A DNA stretch of 61,954 nucleotides. Source: Lachnospiraceae bacterium (lineage in GTDB: Bacteria > Bacillota > Clostridia > Lachnospirales > Lachnospiraceae). Where the stretch lies: contig JAMPGL010000018.1 of the NCBI GenBank assembly GCA_023663945.1, forward strand, positions 1 through 61,954, in the 5' to 3' direction. The translations under genes were made by a program, and so were the position numbers. Of the stretch, positions 13,205-20,262 are shown in pieces; the stretch's first letter is position 1; each line of letters opens with the position of its first letter. The notes under the pieces are model-generated. The model saw only the letters and a program-made list of their open reading frames with translations. It ran no database searches and had not been told where the DNA came from.

Positions 13205-13954
13205 TTATGAAGATTCCCTTCGTTTGCGGATGCCGTTTAAAATAACTTCTTTCTTTTCGATCACCTTGCTCTTTTCCATAGCGGGGATGCCTTTCAGCTT
13301 GTAGGGAATGCCCAGCTTCTGGTATTTGCTTTCGCCCATGGTATGGTAGGGAAGGACATCGAGGGCTTTCAAATTAGAAAATTGCCCGATAAAATACCCC
13401 AGCTCAAACAAGTACTTATCATCATCGGTGATGCCGGGAACCACCACATGGCGGATCCACATATCCACGCCCTTTTCATTCAGATAAGAAGCGAAAGCTA
13501 AAATGCCGTCGTTGGGCTGGCTGGTCAGCTCCTTGTGCTTTTGGGGGTCAATGTGCTTAATGTCCAGCATCACCAGATCCGTTAACTCCATCAGCTTGTC
13601 CAGCTTTTCAATAAAGGGTTTATTGTCAGGATTAAAAGCAATTCCGGAGGAATCAATGCAGGTGTGGACGTGATCCTTTTTGGCAATCGTAAATAGGTCA
13701 ATCAAAAAATCCACCTGCATAAGAGGCTCGCCGCCGGTTACGGTGATTCCCCCCTTGGTATAAAAGCTTTCATTTCGTTTGTATTGTTCGTAAATCTCTT
13801 CCGGCTCCATCATAGTGCCGCCGGTCATCGGCCAAGTGTCCGGATTATGGCAATAGGCACAGCGCATGGGACAGCCTTGGACAAAAACTACAAATCTGGT
13901 GCCCGGACCGTCTACGGTGCCGAAGCTTTCTAAAGAATGGATTCTGCCTTGCAT
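13205..13954 (-). CDS. pflA: Pyruvate formate-lyase-activating enzyme (radical SAM)
   Basis: A 249-residue radical SAM enzyme that installs the glycyl radical on pyruvate formate-lyase, using S-adenosylmethionine and a [4Fe-4S] cluster. The start at 13954 (MQGRIHS) has AAAGGAG upstream; a longer open frame reaching 14077 has no ribosome site. The cluster motif is CPMRCAYC (Cys28, Cys32, Cys35), preceded by SFGTVDGPGTRFVVF, and followed by VTGGEPLMQ, the SAM-binding GGEP loop. Length and motifs match PflA closely. Its target is presumably the split PFL at 17237-19814, about 3.3 kb away. A palindromic operator-like site spans its transcription start. Confidence 0.95.
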   Translation of the reverse strand: MQGRIHSLESFGTVDGPGTRFVVFVQGCPMRCAYCHNPDTWPMTGGTMMEPEEIYEQYKRNESFYTKGGITVTGGEPLMQVDFLIDLFTIAKKDHVHTCIDSSGIAFNPDNKPFIEKLDKLMELTDLVMLDIKHIDPQKHKELTSQPNDGILAFASYLNEKGVDMWIRHVVVPGITDDDKYLFELGYFIGQFSNLKALDVLPYHTMGESKYQKLGIPYKLKGIPAMEKSKVIEKKEVILNGIRKRRESS

Positions 13955-13981
13955 AATGAACTCCTTTCCGCAAAACAAGTA

Positions 13982-14040
13982 ATTTGCCAAAGAACTGCCT
14001 TTGGCAAATATAGTATAGCAGATTAGCTTGAATTTCACAA
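13982..14040 (-). promoter_or_regulatory. pflA promoter with overlapping 11-bp palindrome
   Basis: On the minus strand TTGTGA (14035-14040) and TATACT (14012-14017) are 17 bases apart. Directly downstream, ATTTGCCAAAG (13982-13992) and CTTTGGCAAAT (13999-14009) form a perfect inverted repeat with a 6-base spacer covering the likely +1, a typical repressor position. The motif is not a recognisable Rex or CcpA site. Confidence 0.65.
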
Positions 14041-14120
14041 TATTTGATAAGGAGTGATGCGGTAAGTCAATGTCCATAATTTATAAGATTAAAAATTTAA
14101 CGATAAACATTAAAAATATA

Positions 14121-14190: not shown

Positions 14191-14751
14191 ATGAGCGAGA
14201 GTGATACAAAAGTTGCGGCAAAAATTGCAAAAATCAAAAAGAGCAGCAATGCAGCGCTTATCGTAGTGAAGATTTTAAAGACATTCTGCATTATTATGAC
14301 GGTTGTATCGATTGGATGCGGCTGTGCATTTATCGCGGCAAAGGATTATATCGATCAGGAGTTTGCAAGGGCGTTAGAAACAGGGGAATTGGAACTCGAT
14401 GAAATTTATATTAATGCGGGAGGATTTTTAGATAGTGCGCTTAATATGGCGGAGGTAGAATCCGTAGCGGTAACAGTGGGAACATATCTGTTTGCCATAG
14501 GAATTGTCCTGATCTGCTTTTCCGTTTTGGCGCATTGCATGGGAAAGATATTTAAAGACATTAAGGAAAGTTATTCGCCTTTTCAACAGGAGATTATCAA
14601 AAATTTTAAGGTAGTGTTTGTGCTTATCACGCTCCTTGCGCTGTACAACAGCCTTTTGATTGGAGCGGCTATCGGATTTTCGCTGTGGTGCATGTTTTGG
14701 ATTTTTGAATACGGGTGTGAGCTTCAGCGTCAGTCAGACGAGACGCTATAG
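14191..14751 (+). CDS. DUF2975 family membrane protein
   Basis: A 186-residue membrane protein with about four membrane segments: near residues 22-48 (VVKILKTFCIIMTVVSIGCGCAF), 92-115 (TYLFAIGIVLICFSVLAHC), 135-155 and 158-175. It matches the DUF2975 pattern, including the cytoplasmic SPFQQEIIKNFKV segment between helices two and three. The family's role is unknown, but it is nearly always followed by a small YozG-like HTH protein, as here 30 bases downstream. AGGAACGGAGG precedes ATG 14191. The pair probably forms an autoregulated membrane-signal module (inference). Confidence 0.8.
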   Translation: MSESDTKVAAKIAKIKKSSNAALIVVKILKTFCIIMTVVSIGCGCAFIAAKDYIDQEFARALETGELELDEIYINAGGFLDSALNMAEVESVAVTVGTYLFAIGIVLICFSVLAHCMGKIFKDIKESYSPFQQEIIKNFKVVFVLITLLALYNSLLIGAAIGFSLWCMFWIFEYGCELQRQSDETL

Positions 14752-14781
14752 GCGCGCAGTGCGAAAGGAACAGGTGAAAAT

Positions 14782-14988
14782 ATGGCAATTATATTAAGAT
14801 TAGACCGGATGATGGCGGATCGCAAGATTTCTTTAAACGAGCTGGCGGATAAGGTGGGAATTGCCAATGTGAATCTTTCCAATATTAAGACGGGAAAGGT
14901 CAGCGCGATACGGTTTTCCACCCTGAATGCAATCTGTGACGTGTTAGACTGCCAGCCCGGGGACTTGCTGGAGTTTCAGAGAGACTAA
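14782..14988 (+). CDS. Small XRE-type transcriptional regulator (YozG-like)
   Basis: A 68-residue protein that is just one helix-turn-helix domain: LDRMMADRKISLNELADKVGIANVNLSNIKTGK, then STLNAICDVLDCQPGDLLEF, the ending typical of the YozG/HTH_26 type. The start at ATG 14782 follows GAAAGGAACAGGTG. It belongs to the operon with the DUF2975 membrane protein. This class usually binds the promoter of its own operon. Confidence 0.85.
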   Translation: MAIILRLDRMMADRKISLNELADKVGIANVNLSNIKTGKVSAIRFSTLNAICDVLDCQPGDLLEFQRD

Positions 14989-15116
14989 TACGCAGATTTA
15001 CGGCCGGGTTCAAAGGCTGCAGGTTATAGATTATAAAAAGGATATGGTTACCGAGGAGAAAATTTGCCTGAATGTGAACAAATTGCAATAAATCTGCAAT
15101 TTATTGAGCGGAGGTA

Positions 15117-15146
15117 TTGAACTGTCTCAGGGAAAAGAAGTATAAT
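15117..15146 (+). promoter_or_regulatory. Promoter of the sensor diguanylate cyclase gene
   Basis: TTGAAC at 15117-15122 and TATAAT at 15141-15146 with an 18-base spacer. The transcript would have a leader of about 60 bases. Confidence 0.65.
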
Positions 15147-15211
15147 ATTTGTAGGCACCGTGGGTCAGGCAATGCCGGACAGCCTGTTTTGTGACACAGG
15201 AGGGTAAGCAA

Positions 15212-17098
15212 ATGAGAAAGAAAATCGGCGTTTTTATCGGAGAAGTGGAGTCAGAATATCAGGAGGTAATTTTAAAATCTGTTTTCCGCAGGGCAGAGGA
15301 ACTTAATTATGACGTATTTGTGTTTTGTAATTTTGGTTCCTACGGGGATAACGTGCTTTATGCAGAGGGCGAGAAGAGTGTTATCCGGATTCCGGATGTA
15401 TCCAAGCTGGATGGGATTATGGTTGCGGAGGACACCTTTGATATTGACGGGATGGCAAGCGAAGTTTACCGACTGGTGAAGGAACAAGCCAAGTGCCCGG
15501 TAGTCTACCTTAGGGATTCCAAGGATGATTTTTATAATGTTCTGGTGGAGGATGGAGAGGCGATTGCGGATATTACCAGACATTTTATTCACCATCATGG
15601 ATTCCGCGATATTTGCTTTATGACCGGAGACATGAAGAGTGAGGATGCGCAGAAGAGGTATCGGTGGTTTCTTACGGTCATGGAAGAGGAAAAGATTCCC
15701 GTCACGGAACATATGGTTTTTGAAGGCGATTATTGGAGAACCAAAGGCAAAGAGGCGGTAGACTGGTATATGGAGGGCAGGGATACCTATCCGCAGGCGA
15801 TTATCTGCTCTAATGACTATATGGCTTTATCCATATGCAATGAATTAAAGAGGCGGGGCGTGCGGATTCCAGAGGATGTGTGCGTGTCCGGTTATGATGA
15901 TATTTTGGAGGTGCGCAGATACCAGCCGTCAATTACCAGCATCAGCGCTCCCTTTGCGGCTATGGGCAAAAAGGCGGTGGAGATGATAGATAATGTCTGT
16001 AACCACCGGGAGCAGGAGCGCGTGGAGTGGCTTAAGCCTGCGCTGCAGCTTCGCGAGAGCTGTGGATGCGGGGACGGAAAGATGGACTTAGACATTACTG
16101 CCCTGCTTCATAAGATTTATATTCAGGAGGATCATGTCAAGCAGTCCGTTTATATGACTACAGAATATCAGGATGCTTTTGAGGAGGATGAGTATCTCCG
16201 CATTGCAGAAAAGTATCTTAAGAACATCAGGTGCAGCAGGGCATATCTGTGTATCTGTAATCAAGAGGAAAAGGAGTTTGAAAAGGCGGAGAGCGATAAC
16301 TCTTACACTCGGAAGATTATTTTGAAAAGGGTTTATGGACAGGATCATAAAAGCACCGCCCTTAACGAGGAGTTTGACCGTGGGGAGATTCTTCCCAGTG
16401 AAATCTTTGAAAGGGAGCAGGCGCATGGATATCATGTGTTCCCGGTTCATTACAAAAATAAATGTTATGGGTACATGGTGATGCTGTTCGAGGACGAGGA
16501 GTGGCCGGATGTCTATGTGCAGACGTATCTGTTAGGGCTTGCCAATGTGATTGAGGAGGCGGCAATGCACCGGGAAGTATCTTCTCTGGAGCAGATTCGG
16601 ACGCTGTATCACAAGGACGCACTGACTGGCATCTATAACCGCCGTGGATTTGAAAAGCATATGAGGAGCCTTCATGACCGCTATCAGGAGGAAGGAAAGT
16701 TCTTAAGCATTGTCAGCATTGACATGAACGGACTGAAATATATCAACGATAACTTTGGGCACTCTGAGGGCGATGAGGCGCTCTGCAGGCTTGCTAAGAT
16801 TTTGGAAGAGCTGATGGGAGAGGATGAGATTTGCGCACGAGTGGGCGGAGACGAGTATTTTGTGCTTCTTTATTCGGACAAGAAGGAGCGTGAGCTGGAA
16901 TTTGCGGAGCAGTTCATTCACGCCATGCGTGAATCGGAGGAGCGGACGCCCAAGCCGTATCCCTTCCGCGCGAGCTTTGGAATCTGCTGTATCAGCGATG
17001 AGCAGGGGCTTTCCCTGATGTCCTGCATGCAGCTTGCGGATAAGAGGATGTATGTGCAAAAGAAGCAGTATAAAATGATGCATGAGAAGTTTGCATAA
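15212..17098 (+). CDS. Diguanylate cyclase with LacI-type sugar-binding sensor domain
   Basis: A 628-residue protein starting at ATG 15212 behind AGGAGG (an in-frame ATG at 15191 lies upstream of that site). Residues 1-285 are a periplasmic-binding-protein-like sensor of the LacI/GalR kind (KKIGVFIGEVESEYQEVILKSVFRRAEEL, FITGD..., PQAIICSNDYMALSICNELKRRG, VSGYDD), without the DNA-binding headpiece and without a signal peptide, so it would sense a cytoplasmic ligand. A helical/GAF-like linker follows to about 460. The GGDEF domain (about 465-625) has DALTGIYNRRGF, DMNGLKYINDNFGHSEGDEAL and the active-site loop GGDEY at about 546. The loop is intact, so synthesis of c-di-GMP is likely. Confidence 0.85.
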   Translation: MRKKIGVFIGEVESEYQEVILKSVFRRAEELNYDVFVFCNFGSYGDNVLYAEGEKSVIRIPDVSKLDGIMVAEDTFDIDGMASEVYRLVKEQAKCPVVYLRDSKDDFYNVLVEDGEAIADITRHFIHHHGFRDICFMTGDMKSEDAQKRYRWFLTVMEEEKIPVTEHMVFEGDYWRTKGKEAVDWYMEGRDTYPQAIICSNDYMALSICNELKRRGVRIPEDVCVSGYDDILEVRRYQPSITSISAPFAAMGKKAVEMIDNVCNHREQERVEWLKPALQLRESCGCGDGKMDLDITALLHKIYIQEDHVKQSVYMTTEYQDAFEEDEYLRIAEKYLKNIRCSRAYLCICNQEEKEFEKAESDNSYTRKIILKRVYGQDHKSTALNEEFDRGEILPSEIFEREQAHGYHVFPVHYKNKCYGYMVMLFEDEEWPDVYVQTYLLGLANVIEEAAMHREVSSLEQIRTLYHKDALTGIYNRRGFEKHMRSLHDRYQEEGKFLSIVSIDMNGLKYINDNFGHSEGDEALCRLAKILEELMGEDEICARVGGDEYFVLLYSDKKERELEFAEQFIHAMRESEERTPKPYPFRASFGICCISDEQGLSLMSCMQLADKRMYVQKKQYKMMHEKFA

Positions 17099-17236: not shown

Positions 17237-17479
17237 TTAGATGGACTCATGGAAAGTACGGGAAATAACATCAGCCTGCTGTTCGGGAGTTAATTTGATA
17301 AAATTAACTGCATATCCGGAAACACGGATTGTAAGCTGAGGATAATTCTCGGGATGCTTCTGAGCGTCCAATAATGTATCTCTGTTTAAAACGTTAACGT
17401 TAAGATGATGTCCGCCCTTTGTTGCATAGCCATCTAATAATGATACTAAGTTATCTACCTGAGCAGTATTTGTTGCCAT
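17237..17479 (-). CDS. grcA: Stand-alone glycyl-radical domain of pyruvate formate-lyase (GrcA-like)
   Basis: An 80-residue protein equal to the C-terminal domain of pyruvate formate-lyase: a [20 protein letters not shown] segment, [19 protein letters not shown], and the radical site RVSGYAVNF, where the glycine is converted to a glycyl radical by PflA. The family ending ([16 protein letters not shown]) is complete. The start at 17479 (MATNTAQ) is set by AAAGGAGG 10 bases upstream. In E. coli the similar YfiD/GrcA is a spare part that replaces a damaged PFL domain. Here the main PFL gene lacks this domain, so this protein is probably essential for its activity rather than a backup. It is the last gene of the pfl operon. 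Confidence 0.9.
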
Positions 17480-17499
17480 GGTAATCATACCTCCTTTAA

Positions 17500-17703
17500 T
17501 TAATGAAAATCATCCAATCCATCCTGCAGGGTGGGTACGCTGCACGCCAGAGGAGTTCTGGAACAGTCTGTGCATCCCATGGTCTGAACAGTTTTGGATT
17601 GTTCCTCGGCAGCGTCAGTGTCCACGTTAACGTGCCCGACACCCATTGCCATACCGGAATCCAGCATTTTCACAAGATCGTCGATCATACTTTTTTCATC
17701 CAT
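17500..17703 (-). CDS. Small cysteine-containing paralogue of the start of the glycyl-radical domain
   Basis: A 67-residue ORF between pflB and the radical-domain gene, with an AGGAGG site 8 bases before ATG 17703. Its first half ([24 protein letters not shown]) aligns with the first part of the radical domain ([23 protein letters not shown]), but the RVSGY radical site is absent. The second half has a CTDC pair and another Cys (LACS) in a segment unlike PFL. It is not a frameshifted PFL piece, because it has its own ribosome site and stop. The function is unknown; a scaffold or protector of the split enzyme is only a guess. Confidence 0.7.
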
Positions 17704-17774
17704 TTGTCGTACCTCCTGAAGGTGGATTGTGTTATAAGCTCTTATATTCCAAGGCGCATTGTGCCTATGGAAAA

Positions 17775-19814
17775 TTATTTATTCAGGTCAACTTCGATGT
17801 CGCCTGCAAATACCTGATCCTCTTTGCCGAGAGCTCCGGGAATGATGGTGAAGGTATTGGAGATACCATCCTGTGCATCATTGAAAGGAAGCTTGGATAC
17901 GGAAGATAAGGATGCTACTGCACCGTGGGTGTCGCGTCCATGCATCGGGTTAGCACCGGGAGCGAAAGGCTGTCCTTTCTTACGTCCGTCAGGCGTGTTT
18001 CCGGTAGCCTTACCATAAGTTACGTTGGAAGTAATGGTAAGGATGGAGGTTGTAGGAACGCCGTTCCGGTAGGTGTGGTGTCTCCGGATAGCCGTCATGA
18101 ATTTATGAACAACATCCTGAGCGATTGCATCTACACGGTCATCATCGTTGCCGTATTTCGGGAAGTCTCCGGTTGTCTTGAAGTCAACGATAATGCCGTC
18201 TTCGTCACGGATCACTTCAACCTTGGCATACTTGATAGCTGATAAGGAGTCAGCTACGATGGAAAGACCTGCAACGCCGGTTGCAAAGTAGCGCTTAACG
18301 TCTCTGTCATGGAGCGCCATCTCAGCTCTCTCATAGCAGTATTTGTCATGCATATAATGAATGATGTTCAGGGTGTTAACGTAAACGTCAGCCTGCCATT
18401 CCATCATATCGATGAATTTGCTGTAAACATCATCATAATCAAGAACATCGCCGGTAACAGGACGATACTTCGGTCCAACCTGCTTCTTGGTAACTTCGTC
18501 GATACCGCCGTTTAATGCGTAAAGCAGACACTTAGCAAGGTTTGCTCTTGCTCCGAAGAACTGCATTTCCTTACCGATAACCATGGAGGATACGCAGCAT
18601 GCAATACCGTAGTCGTCACCGTGGGTTACTCTCATCAGGTCGTCGTTCTCATACTGGATAGAAGAGGTCTGGATAGACATCTTAGCGCAGTATCTCTTCC
18701 AGTTCTCAGGAAGTCTTGTAGACCAGAGAACGGTAAGGTTGGGCTCCGGGCTGGGTCCTAAGTTGGTCAAGGTGTGCAGATAACGGAAGCTCATCTTTGT
18801 AACCATAGGACGACCGTCAACGCCAACGCCGCCTAAGGATTCGGTTACCCATACAGGATCGCCTGCGAAAATCTGGTTGTACTCAGGAGTACGTGCAAAT
18901 TTAACGCAGCGCAGCTTCATGATGAAGTGATCAACAAATTCCTGAATCTCCTGTTCGGTAAAGGTTCCGTTCTTAAGGTCTCTCTCTGCATAGCAGTCAA
19001 GGAAGGTAGAGGTACGTCCGAGGGACATAGCAGCACCGTTCTGCTCCTTAACGGAACATAAGTATCCAAAGTAGGTAGCCTGGATTGCTTCTTTTACGTT
19101 GGTTGCGGGTTTGGAAATATCGCAGCCGTAAGAAGCAGCCATTTCTTTCATCATCTTAAGGGCAACCATCTGCTCGGAAAGCTCCTCACGAAGGCGAATC
19201 ACGTCGTCAGTCATAACACGTCCGGTAGAATCCTTCTGTGCCTGTTTGTCCTCGATCAGTCTGTCAATACCATAAAGAGCGACACGTCTGTAGTCGCCGA
19301 TGATACGTCCGCGTCCATAAGCATCCGGAAGACCTGTGATGATATGTGCGGAACGGCATGCTCTCATCTCTGCATTGTATGCATCGAAGCAGCCTGCATT
19401 GTGTGTTTTTCTGTGAGTGTTGAAAAATTCGCTGATCTCAGGATCTACTTTGTATCCGTTGTCCTCACATGCCTTTTCTGCCATTCTGATACCGCCGTAA
19501 GGCTGCAGGGAACGCTTAAAAGGAGCATCTGTCTGGAAACCAACGATTTTTTCTTTGGATTTGTCAAGGTAACCGGGACCGTGTGATGTAATGGTGGATA
19601 CAACCTTGGTATCCATATCAAGAACACCGCCTGCCTCGCGTTCCTTCTTTTGCAGATCAAGAACCATCTGCCATAAGTCTTTTGTGTCTTGCGTAGCTTC
19701 AGCTAAGAAGGATTCGTCACCATCATAAGGATGGTAGTTTCTCTGAATGAAGTCACGTACGTTAACCTCGTTCTCCCACTTGCCGCCTACAAAATCTGTC
19801 CATTCTGGTCTCAT
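17775..19814 (-). CDS. pflB: Pyruvate formate-lyase catalytic subunit lacking the glycyl-radical domain
   Basis: A 679-residue formate C-acetyltransferase body. It converts pyruvate and CoA to acetyl-CoA and formate in the cytoplasm. The catalytic cysteine pair is Cys406-Cys407 in GIACCVSSM, equivalent to Cys418/419 of E. coli. The full-length family is about 760 residues; this one stops after [20 protein letters not shown], exactly where the C-terminal radical domain begins in other PFLs, and that domain is a separate gene at 17237-17479. The end is a genuine TAA, not a frame break. The operon order is pflB, a 67-residue ORF, then grcA. The promoter is at 19884-19913, and AGGAGG precedes the start. 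Confidence 0.95.
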
Positions 19815-19883: not shown

Positions 19884-19913
19884 ATTATATGTTACAAGGT
19901 AAGAAACAGTCAA
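19884..19913 (-). promoter_or_regulatory. Promoter of the pfl operon
   Basis: On the minus strand TTGACT (19908-19913) and TATAAT (19884-19889) are separated by 18 bases, about 70 bases upstream of pflB. Confidence 0.75.
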
Positions 19914-20070: not shown

Positions 20071-20262
20071 ATGGCACAGATTACCAAAGACATGACGATT
20101 GGTGAGATTTTAAGAACAAATCCGAATGTTGCACCGATTCTTATGGAAGCAGGCATGCACTGTCTGGGCTGTCCTTCTGCGCAGGGAGAAAGCCTTGAGG
20201 AGGCGGCGATGGTTCACGGAATGGATATAAATGATCTGATGGCAAAGATTGAGGTTTTATAA
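20071..20262 (+). CDS. DUF1858 domain protein
   Basis: A 63-residue protein that is entirely one DUF1858 domain: [43 protein letters not shown]. The CLGC pair at about residues 27-30 is the conserved feature of the family, which is found alone or fused to redox and iron-sulfur enzymes; the molecular role is not settled. AAGGAGG precedes ATG 20071. It is divergent from pflB, an anaerobic context that fits a redox role (inference). Confidence 0.85.

Follow-up and report, generated by a model that had tools for sequence, protein, structure and literature searches.

Pyruvate formate-lyase (PFL) holds a central place in anaerobic fermentation, and its damage by oxygen is a textbook example. The locus described here raises the question of how a PFL can be assembled when its gene stops short of the domain that carries the radical glycine, and of what a small protein encoded between the two parts may contribute. 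The locus lies in contig JAMPGL010000018.1 of the Lachnospiraceae bacterium assembly GCA_023663945.1, of which positions 1 to 61,954 were analysed; this whole stretch of 61,954 nucleotides is called the window below. On the minus strand, a PFL body of 679 amino acids (aa) is followed by an open reading frame (ORF) of 67 aa, whose product is referred to as the middle protein, and then by a free glycyl-radical domain of 80 aa. With a probability of roughly one half, these three genes would encode a single, obligately split PFL in which the middle protein is an accessory subunit that docks by a half-domain and brings a functional cysteine (Cys) tail. Judged from the predicted proteins, the Cys tail is kept in nearly all of the split PFLs sampled, either fused to the body or supplied via the small protein. 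The parts of the locus are as follows.

17775..19814, minus strand: PFL body without radical domain (pflB core, 679 aa; TIGR01255 1091.6 bits, PF02901 E 1.1e-217)
18594..18599, minus strand: active-site Cys pair, A-C-C-V, body residues 406-407 (translation, aligned to Escherichia coli PFL)
17500..17703, minus strand: middle protein, 67 aa, proposed accessory subunit (occurrence in the family, ratio of nonsynonymous to synonymous substitution rates (dN/dS), gene order)
17605..17703, minus strand: N-terminal half (N-half) of the middle protein, homologue of the radical-domain N-half, at about E. coli PFL 682-713 (hhalign, PDB 1cm5 alignment)
17503..17583, minus strand: Cys tail of the middle protein (hhalign to the tails of tailed PFL bodies; lowest nonsynonymous-to-synonymous ratio, pN/pS)
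17237..17479, minus strand: GrcA3 free glycyl-radical domain, 80 aa (NF038360 161.1 bits; ribosome site)
17315..17317, minus strand: radical glycine codon of RVSGY (translation)

The body is a member of the PFL family TIGR01255, its score lying above the curated cut-off of 994.2 bits, and the match covers positions 2-665 of 744. Because the match ends at 665, the body stops inside the Pfam Gly_radical domain, and it has no C-terminal RVSGY loop of its own. The Gly_radical profile is covered by the two proteins between them, positions 1-51 by the body and 49-106 by the free domain. An adjacent Cys pair is present in the body (ACC, residues 405-407) and aligns, via the body of a relative, to the ACC of E. 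coli PFL (PDB 1h16); the window body has no Cys tail. The free ORF carries RVSGY and exceeds the cut-off of 158 bits for NF038360, the model for the autonomous glycyl radical cofactor GrcA3. The catalytic parts are spread over two proteins, the Cys pair on the body and RVSGY on GrcA3, and the division of PFL into two genes with a separate radical domain, on which the original prediction was built, is borne out. Ribosome sites, AGGAGG or GGAGG, precede all three genes, as had also been claimed. An alternative start at 17488 would give a GrcA3 of 83 aa; the start at 17479 is preferred because the ATG at 17488 abuts AGGAGGT.

The assembly of this genome (G000) has 3.74 Mb and is 94% complete. A search with PF02901 gave one match, the body without a radical domain. 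The original prediction had named a second full-length PFL as the observation that would speak against it, and none was found by this search of the 94%-complete assembly. Two free radical domains are present, both of them RVSGY-bearing ORFs, and no other RVSGY domain was found. With one PFL body and radical domains that are all free, the enzyme would have no built-in radical site and would depend on a free domain, which agrees with the earlier remark that the free domain looks obligatory. The second GrcA3 is a near-copy of 79 aa on contig 19 (133041-133274; L088, 6032-6278), located behind a gene that was named by eye as a Crp/Fnr-type regulator, and this orphan copy may be a true spare part. 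Pairs of an orphan GrcA3 and a Crp/Fnr-type regulator similar to that on contig 19 were seen at L118 and L125, and orphan GrcA3 copies without a close relative of that regulator at L119, L121, L123, L124, L126 and L127.

The distribution of the split was examined in 200 genomes of the family, drawn evenly and by tally one per genus, some of them incomplete. TIGR01255 was matched in 173/200 and GrcA3 in 171/200, 70 of the latter over the cut-off. A PFL was counted as split when the match stops near 665 or continues only through stop codons, and by hand count the best 150 TIGR01255 matches comprise 70 that are split and 80 that reach 742-744. The split as such is therefore not the novelty for which it had been taken: it is shared by 70 of the best 150 matches in the family, and the free domain is already known, having been named GrcA3 by NCBIfam. 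What appears to be new is the middle protein. For the comparisons below, 76 split bodies of at least 560 aa were used, namely the 70 split bodies among the best 150 matches (own genome included) and 6 reached via their middle proteins. Four partial bodies at contig ends (L035, L037, L042 and L064), tail-less and with a middle protein, were excluded, and split PFLs beyond the best 150 matches enter only if a middle protein is present. With 76 split bodies in the family sample, that of the window among them, a sequencing error or frameshift, judged unlikely from the outset, is excluded, and PFL genes that look truncated in these genomes are probably genuine.

The middle protein was found in 53/200 family genomes, own genome included, from 54 matches at E<=0.01; the one match discarded, in G134 (L087), lies inside a frame of 456 aa. 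The search for the three-gene order in other Lachnospiraceae, which had been proposed as a check, gave a clear result: body, middle protein and grcA3 follow each other on one strand in 50/52 fetched loci, or 51/53 genomes with the window, and in 44 of the 50 loci with this order pflA follows on that strand. The exceptions are G002, where the copy of the middle protein is unlinked, and G006, a 67%-complete genome in which no PFL was found. The middle ORF was intact in close relatives, where its absence or a broken frame would have spoken against the prediction. The same order was present in 4/4 loci checked in other families of the order. By hand count, near-full-length relatives of the middle protein occurred in 42/295 genomes of an order-wide draw, 26 of them outside the family, and in 9/291 genomes of a class-wide draw. 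Scanning the GTDB collection with a degenerate pattern gave 490 stretches that encode relatives, and Parablautia, Acetatifactor muris and Kineothrix alysoides are among the 80 of these that were retained.

The description of the middle ORF as half a radical domain without RVSGY, followed by a Cys-rich tail, is upheld by profile comparison. Its N-half aligned with the N-half of the radical domain by hhalign at E 1.5e-7 over 35 columns. The GrcA3 model was matched by 44/53 middle proteins at E<=0.1, with a best value of 8.6e-7; the window protein alone gave a weak GrcA3 match at residues 4-28, E 0.081. The middle-protein profile also picks up GrcA3s and the radical domains of full-length PFLs, via about its first 34 positions, and the GrcA3 alignment to PDB 1cm5 places the N-half at the residues of E. 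coli PFL given above. The RVSGY radical loop was absent, by eye, from the 53 aligned middle proteins. The gathering cut-off of PF01228 (Gly_radical) was not reached by the middle protein, 3/53 members giving matches at E<=0.1 (best 0.01) and the window protein having no Pfam match; a scan of the 53 members found no Pfam or NCBIfam model that covers the protein. No match to the middle-protein profile was found among PDB chains, the best of which (E 0.013) was unrelated.

Among the 53 aligned middle proteins D15 and G23 are common to all, and L14, H24, N26, V39, C47, A53, C54, P57 and T58 are found in at least 90%. The window protein has Cys at 44, 47 and 54, and the tail pattern is C-x6-A-C-x-V-P-T-L-x2-G-L-D; a Cys pair was counted by hand in 49/52 middle proteins. 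Selection on the protein was measured with 66 close relatives of equal length, out of 77 found, which gave 774 pairs with synonymous divergence (dS) of 0.1-1.5. The median dN/dS was 0.09 and 0/774 pairs had a value of 1 or more, indicating purifying selection, and a chance ORF is rejected on this ground. Of the three parts the tail has the lowest pN/pS, 0.045, against 0.13 in the N-half and 0.39 in the linker. As a separate observation, body residues 404-411, IACCVSSM, seem to resemble middle-protein residues 52-59 in the tail, LACSVPTL.

The tail is not confined to the middle protein. In split PFLs without a middle protein the body extends past ALGK to a total of 693-711 aa and ends in a Cys tail, examples of which are CPDEACRIPNLMEGLDREF and CGDMACKVPTLHKGIDDDDNN. 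These body tails aligned with the middle-protein tail by hhalign at E 3.9e-8 over 19 columns. The strict motif [AS]Cx[IVA]P[NT][LIM] is present in 48/52 middle proteins and 15/27 body tails, and in 1000 shuffles the means were 0.001 and 0.0, respectively. The earlier idea that the Cys tail is special to the half-domain protein has to be given up in view of the homologous tail at the end of the body in other lineages.

The two forms divide the sample between them. There are 27/76 split bodies with 2-3 Cys after ALGK and no middle protein, and 49/76 with no Cys after ALGK and a middle protein present, unlinked in two cases (G002 and G130). G130 was an apparent exception until the profile search found its middle protein on another contig. 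Tail and middle protein are mutually exclusive in the 76 sampled family systems. A profile search of the 27 tailed genomes gave no match spanning both halves of the middle protein; the profile matched the N-half of GrcA3 in 27/27 and the PFL body's own tail in 7/27 (G092, G018, G015, G065, G136, G133 and G085; E 4e-5 to 0.7), apart from a few scattered matches at chance level. As the profile finds the N-half of GrcA3 and the body tail separately, the middle protein reads as the sum of two pieces. Given that tailed bodies occur without the small protein and tail-less bodies with one, the Cys tail, and not the small protein itself, would be the element that is kept.

Outside the order, 12 genomes were compared that have a free domain of the GrcA3 type scoring above or slightly below the cut-off. 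The body had a Cys tail in 6/12 (in one only CCEDNID) and the middle protein was present in 3/12; in one of these, G623, it lies behind grcA3 and beside a tail-less body. A full-length PFL, L128 of G096, has CGCEEVTCAV in the linker before the radical domain and is, by its predicted sequence, a natural case of body, Cys element and radical domain joined in one chain. Such Cys are lacking in five full-length PFLs whose radical domain is GrcA3-like (L129-L133), and no middle protein was detected in their genomes. These five PFLs fall within the split clade on a quick tree of the bodies, which gave long-branch warnings on L110, L138 and two groups of full-length rows. This position would imply a re-fusion with loss of the Cys element. 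Re-fusion of L129-L133 is not claimed, because a tree on which the 77 split-type rows stay in one group is not rejected by the approximately unbiased test (p 0.388). On the same tree the tail and middle-protein traits each show 8 changes, and in 4/4 independent pairs on well-supported branches the two traits change together.

The following mechanism is proposed. The enzyme would consist of the catalytic body with its thiyl Cys pair, GrcA3, which PflA must activate, and the small accessory subunit. The half-domain would dock on the body where the first strand of the radical domain docks, an arrangement that may be likened to the stub 696-733 of oxygen-cleaved E. coli PFL, which aids binding of YfiD. 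Docked in this way, it would hold the Cys tail near the empty slot of the radical domain. There the conserved thiols might act as a guard, either by holding or reducing the open active site or by quenching or sensing an exposed radical, up to the binding and activation of GrcA3, and the second, unlinked GrcA3 copy would serve as a spare part. The tail could imitate the Cys loop opposite the radical glycine, and the DUF1858/TIGR03980 protein encoded nearby is a candidate redox partner for it. Protection of the radical, raised in the original prediction, is put forward for the Cys tail as a hypothesis. A more tentative extension is that the middle protein may be an undescribed type of glycyl-radical-enzyme subunit, a pseudo radical domain with a redox Cys tail in place of the radical loop; this subunit would cap the empty radical slot of a PFL that is put together from parts in every case. 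The movable tail would then be the guard for a detachable radical cofactor, and the cell would have genes for a body, a stub and a spare part, a state to which E. coli PFL comes only via oxygen damage.

Several results weigh against a guarding tail delivered by a docked half-domain. The Cys element is not universal, because three of the 12 split systems outside the order, those of G626 (82% completeness), G722 and G662, have neither tail nor middle protein. The strict motif is missing in 12/27 body tails and the Cys spacing varies from CxCC upward. By hand count the first Cys of CxxC is absent in 15/52 middle proteins, and the middle proteins of L084 (G012) and L085 (G026) end right after CxxC, before ACxVPTL. 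Docking by a half-domain is not needed everywhere, since the tailed bodies have none. Sampling was uneven, tailed systems coming from the best 150 matches only and those with a middle protein also from the middle-protein search. For the joint change of the two traits on the tree a sign test gave p 0.125, just four supported pairs being too few for a firm test.

Other roles were considered. The middle protein might be a recruiter only, that is, a separately encoded stub 696-733 that recruits GrcA3 to the body or positions PflA, with Cys that play a structural part in a metal or disulfide clip. In favour, the N-half shows homology to the start of the stub region and, according to the portion of PMC8683613 consulted, E. 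coli PFL cut by oxygen at Gly734 retains residues 696-733, the removal of which abolishes YfiD binding detectable by isothermal titration calorimetry and lowers activation 32-fold. Recruitment alone is nevertheless doubtful, for the tailed systems have the Cys tail without a second half-domain, which makes the tail the constant element, and constraint is stronger on the tail than on the N-half (pN/pS 0.045 vs 0.13). Competition is another role suggested by the N-halves: those of the middle protein and GrcA3 are related, so the two proteins may share a site, and the half-domain could act as an inhibitor that occupies the slot in competition with GrcA3 and keeps the enzyme inactive, for instance under oxygen. 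The covalent tail of a tailed body would then inhibit permanently, and the fixed gene order suggests a fixed partnership, which together make an antagonist quite improbable.

Two further readings concern the Cys and the origin of the ORF. The 2-3 tail Cys might hold Zn or an Fe-S cluster, either by themselves or at a site shared with the body or spanning a dimer; precedents are the small subunits of benzylsuccinate synthase and 4-hydroxyphenylacetate decarboxylase and the Zn site of NrdD. A metal-site subunit would explain the Cys pair of 49/52 middle proteins and the 2-3 Cys of 27/27 body tails, but just two Cys are widely conserved, their spacing is variable and the first Cys of CxxC is lacking in the 15/52 middle proteins mentioned above, so this reading is improbable. 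That the middle ORF is a functionless, decaying leftover of the original radical domain would suit its location between body and grcA3 and its homology to that domain. Such decay is very hard to believe in the face of a dN/dS of 0.09 with 0/774 pairs at 1 or more, a ribosome site, the retention of unlinked copies in G002 and G130 and the relatives in 490 stretches of the GTDB collection.

The surroundings of the three genes contain the following features.

19884..19913, minus strand: promoter-like site 5' of the three genes (pattern match, 11/12 consensus bases)
13205..14077, minus strand: pflA, gene of the PFL-activating enzyme (TIGR02493 291.9 bits)
20071..20262, plus strand: DUF1858 redox-disulfide protein, 63 aa, divergent neighbour (TIGR03980 102.5 bits)

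The candidate promoter has the -35 and -10 elements TTGACT-18-TATAAT (19913-19884); 7 promoter-like sites were found by the pattern scan against 5.2 in shuffles, which makes this weak evidence. The pattern scan found no terminator-like sites between the three genes. In the window pflA lies 3.1 kb downstream of grcA3, behind plus-strand ORFs. Three such ORFs (14191-17098) part the two genes, which adjoin in most relatives, and a 635-aa protein among them looks, by eye, like a LacI-type sensor with a GGDEF domain. A divergent DUF1858/TIGR03980 gene within 1 kb of the body was seen in 22/46 loci with a middle protein vs 5/27 tailed loci, these being the loci fetched with upstream sequence. Small ORFs with an IDDxIxMLD-like N-half and a tail like YHHGRCDVGSPxAxG occur on contig 52 of G000 (L229, 5974-6162) and at L230 and L233-L236, and two others, L231 and L232, have a different tail, CCNxYGRPAxETVGLLDMYTD. 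Four of these eight small ORFs were scanned and gave no Pfam or NCBIfam family above chance; those with the YHHGRCDVGSP tail are possibly a paralogous small-protein family.

Among the top-ranked papers of a literature search, whose coverage left subscription journals mostly outside, no description of a split PFL or of the middle protein was found, and neither is treated in the portions consulted of PMC13252398 and PMC11528403. Within this coverage the middle protein and the exchange of its tail seem undescribed. In a large group of gut bacteria the radical domain seems to have become a replaceable subunit, while a Cys element was kept for which no name was found in that literature. This opens a testable question, namely how strict anaerobes protect or repair radical enzymes, and offers an enzyme whose radical cofactor could be added, removed or swapped in the test tube.

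Parts of the system can be compared with known ones. Split body and GrcA3 are a common arrangement in the family, and the GrcA3 model NF038360 covers the free domain only and not the middle protein. The formate acetyltransferase chains PDB 38lb and 38la align to the body and gave no radical-domain match at E<=0.001, which indicates that split or cut PFL bodies have been studied. The chain of 38lb runs past ALGK with a Cys-holding stretch, GECDMCEM; a search of 291 class genomes with 30 of its residues gave 6 weak matches and did not reveal its source. The accessory subunits BssB, BssC and HpdC resemble the middle protein in being small, in containing Cys and in having their genes next to that of a glycyl radical enzyme. 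They bind Fe-S clusters, and a 4Fe-4S cluster needs at least four Cys. The middle protein differs in being built from half a radical domain with 2-3 Cys, three in the window protein and two in many relatives.

The nearest parallel is GrcA/YfiD (TIGR04365), in which, as in the locus described here, a free glycyl-radical domain completes a PFL body lacking a radical site (PMC8683613, in the portion consulted). According to the same portion YfiD repairs a full-length PFL that has been cleaved by oxygen, whereas no full-length PFL that could be cleaved was found in the 94%-complete assembly; here the radical domain is encoded beside a body born without it, with a third protein between. The stub 696-733 serves in E. 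coli as the recognition element for YfiD (PMC8683613, likewise in part), and it is with the beginning of this stub that the middle-protein N-half aligns. The E. coli stub arises by damage, stays covalently on the body and has no Cys tail, whereas its counterpart here is a separate gene product that ends in one.

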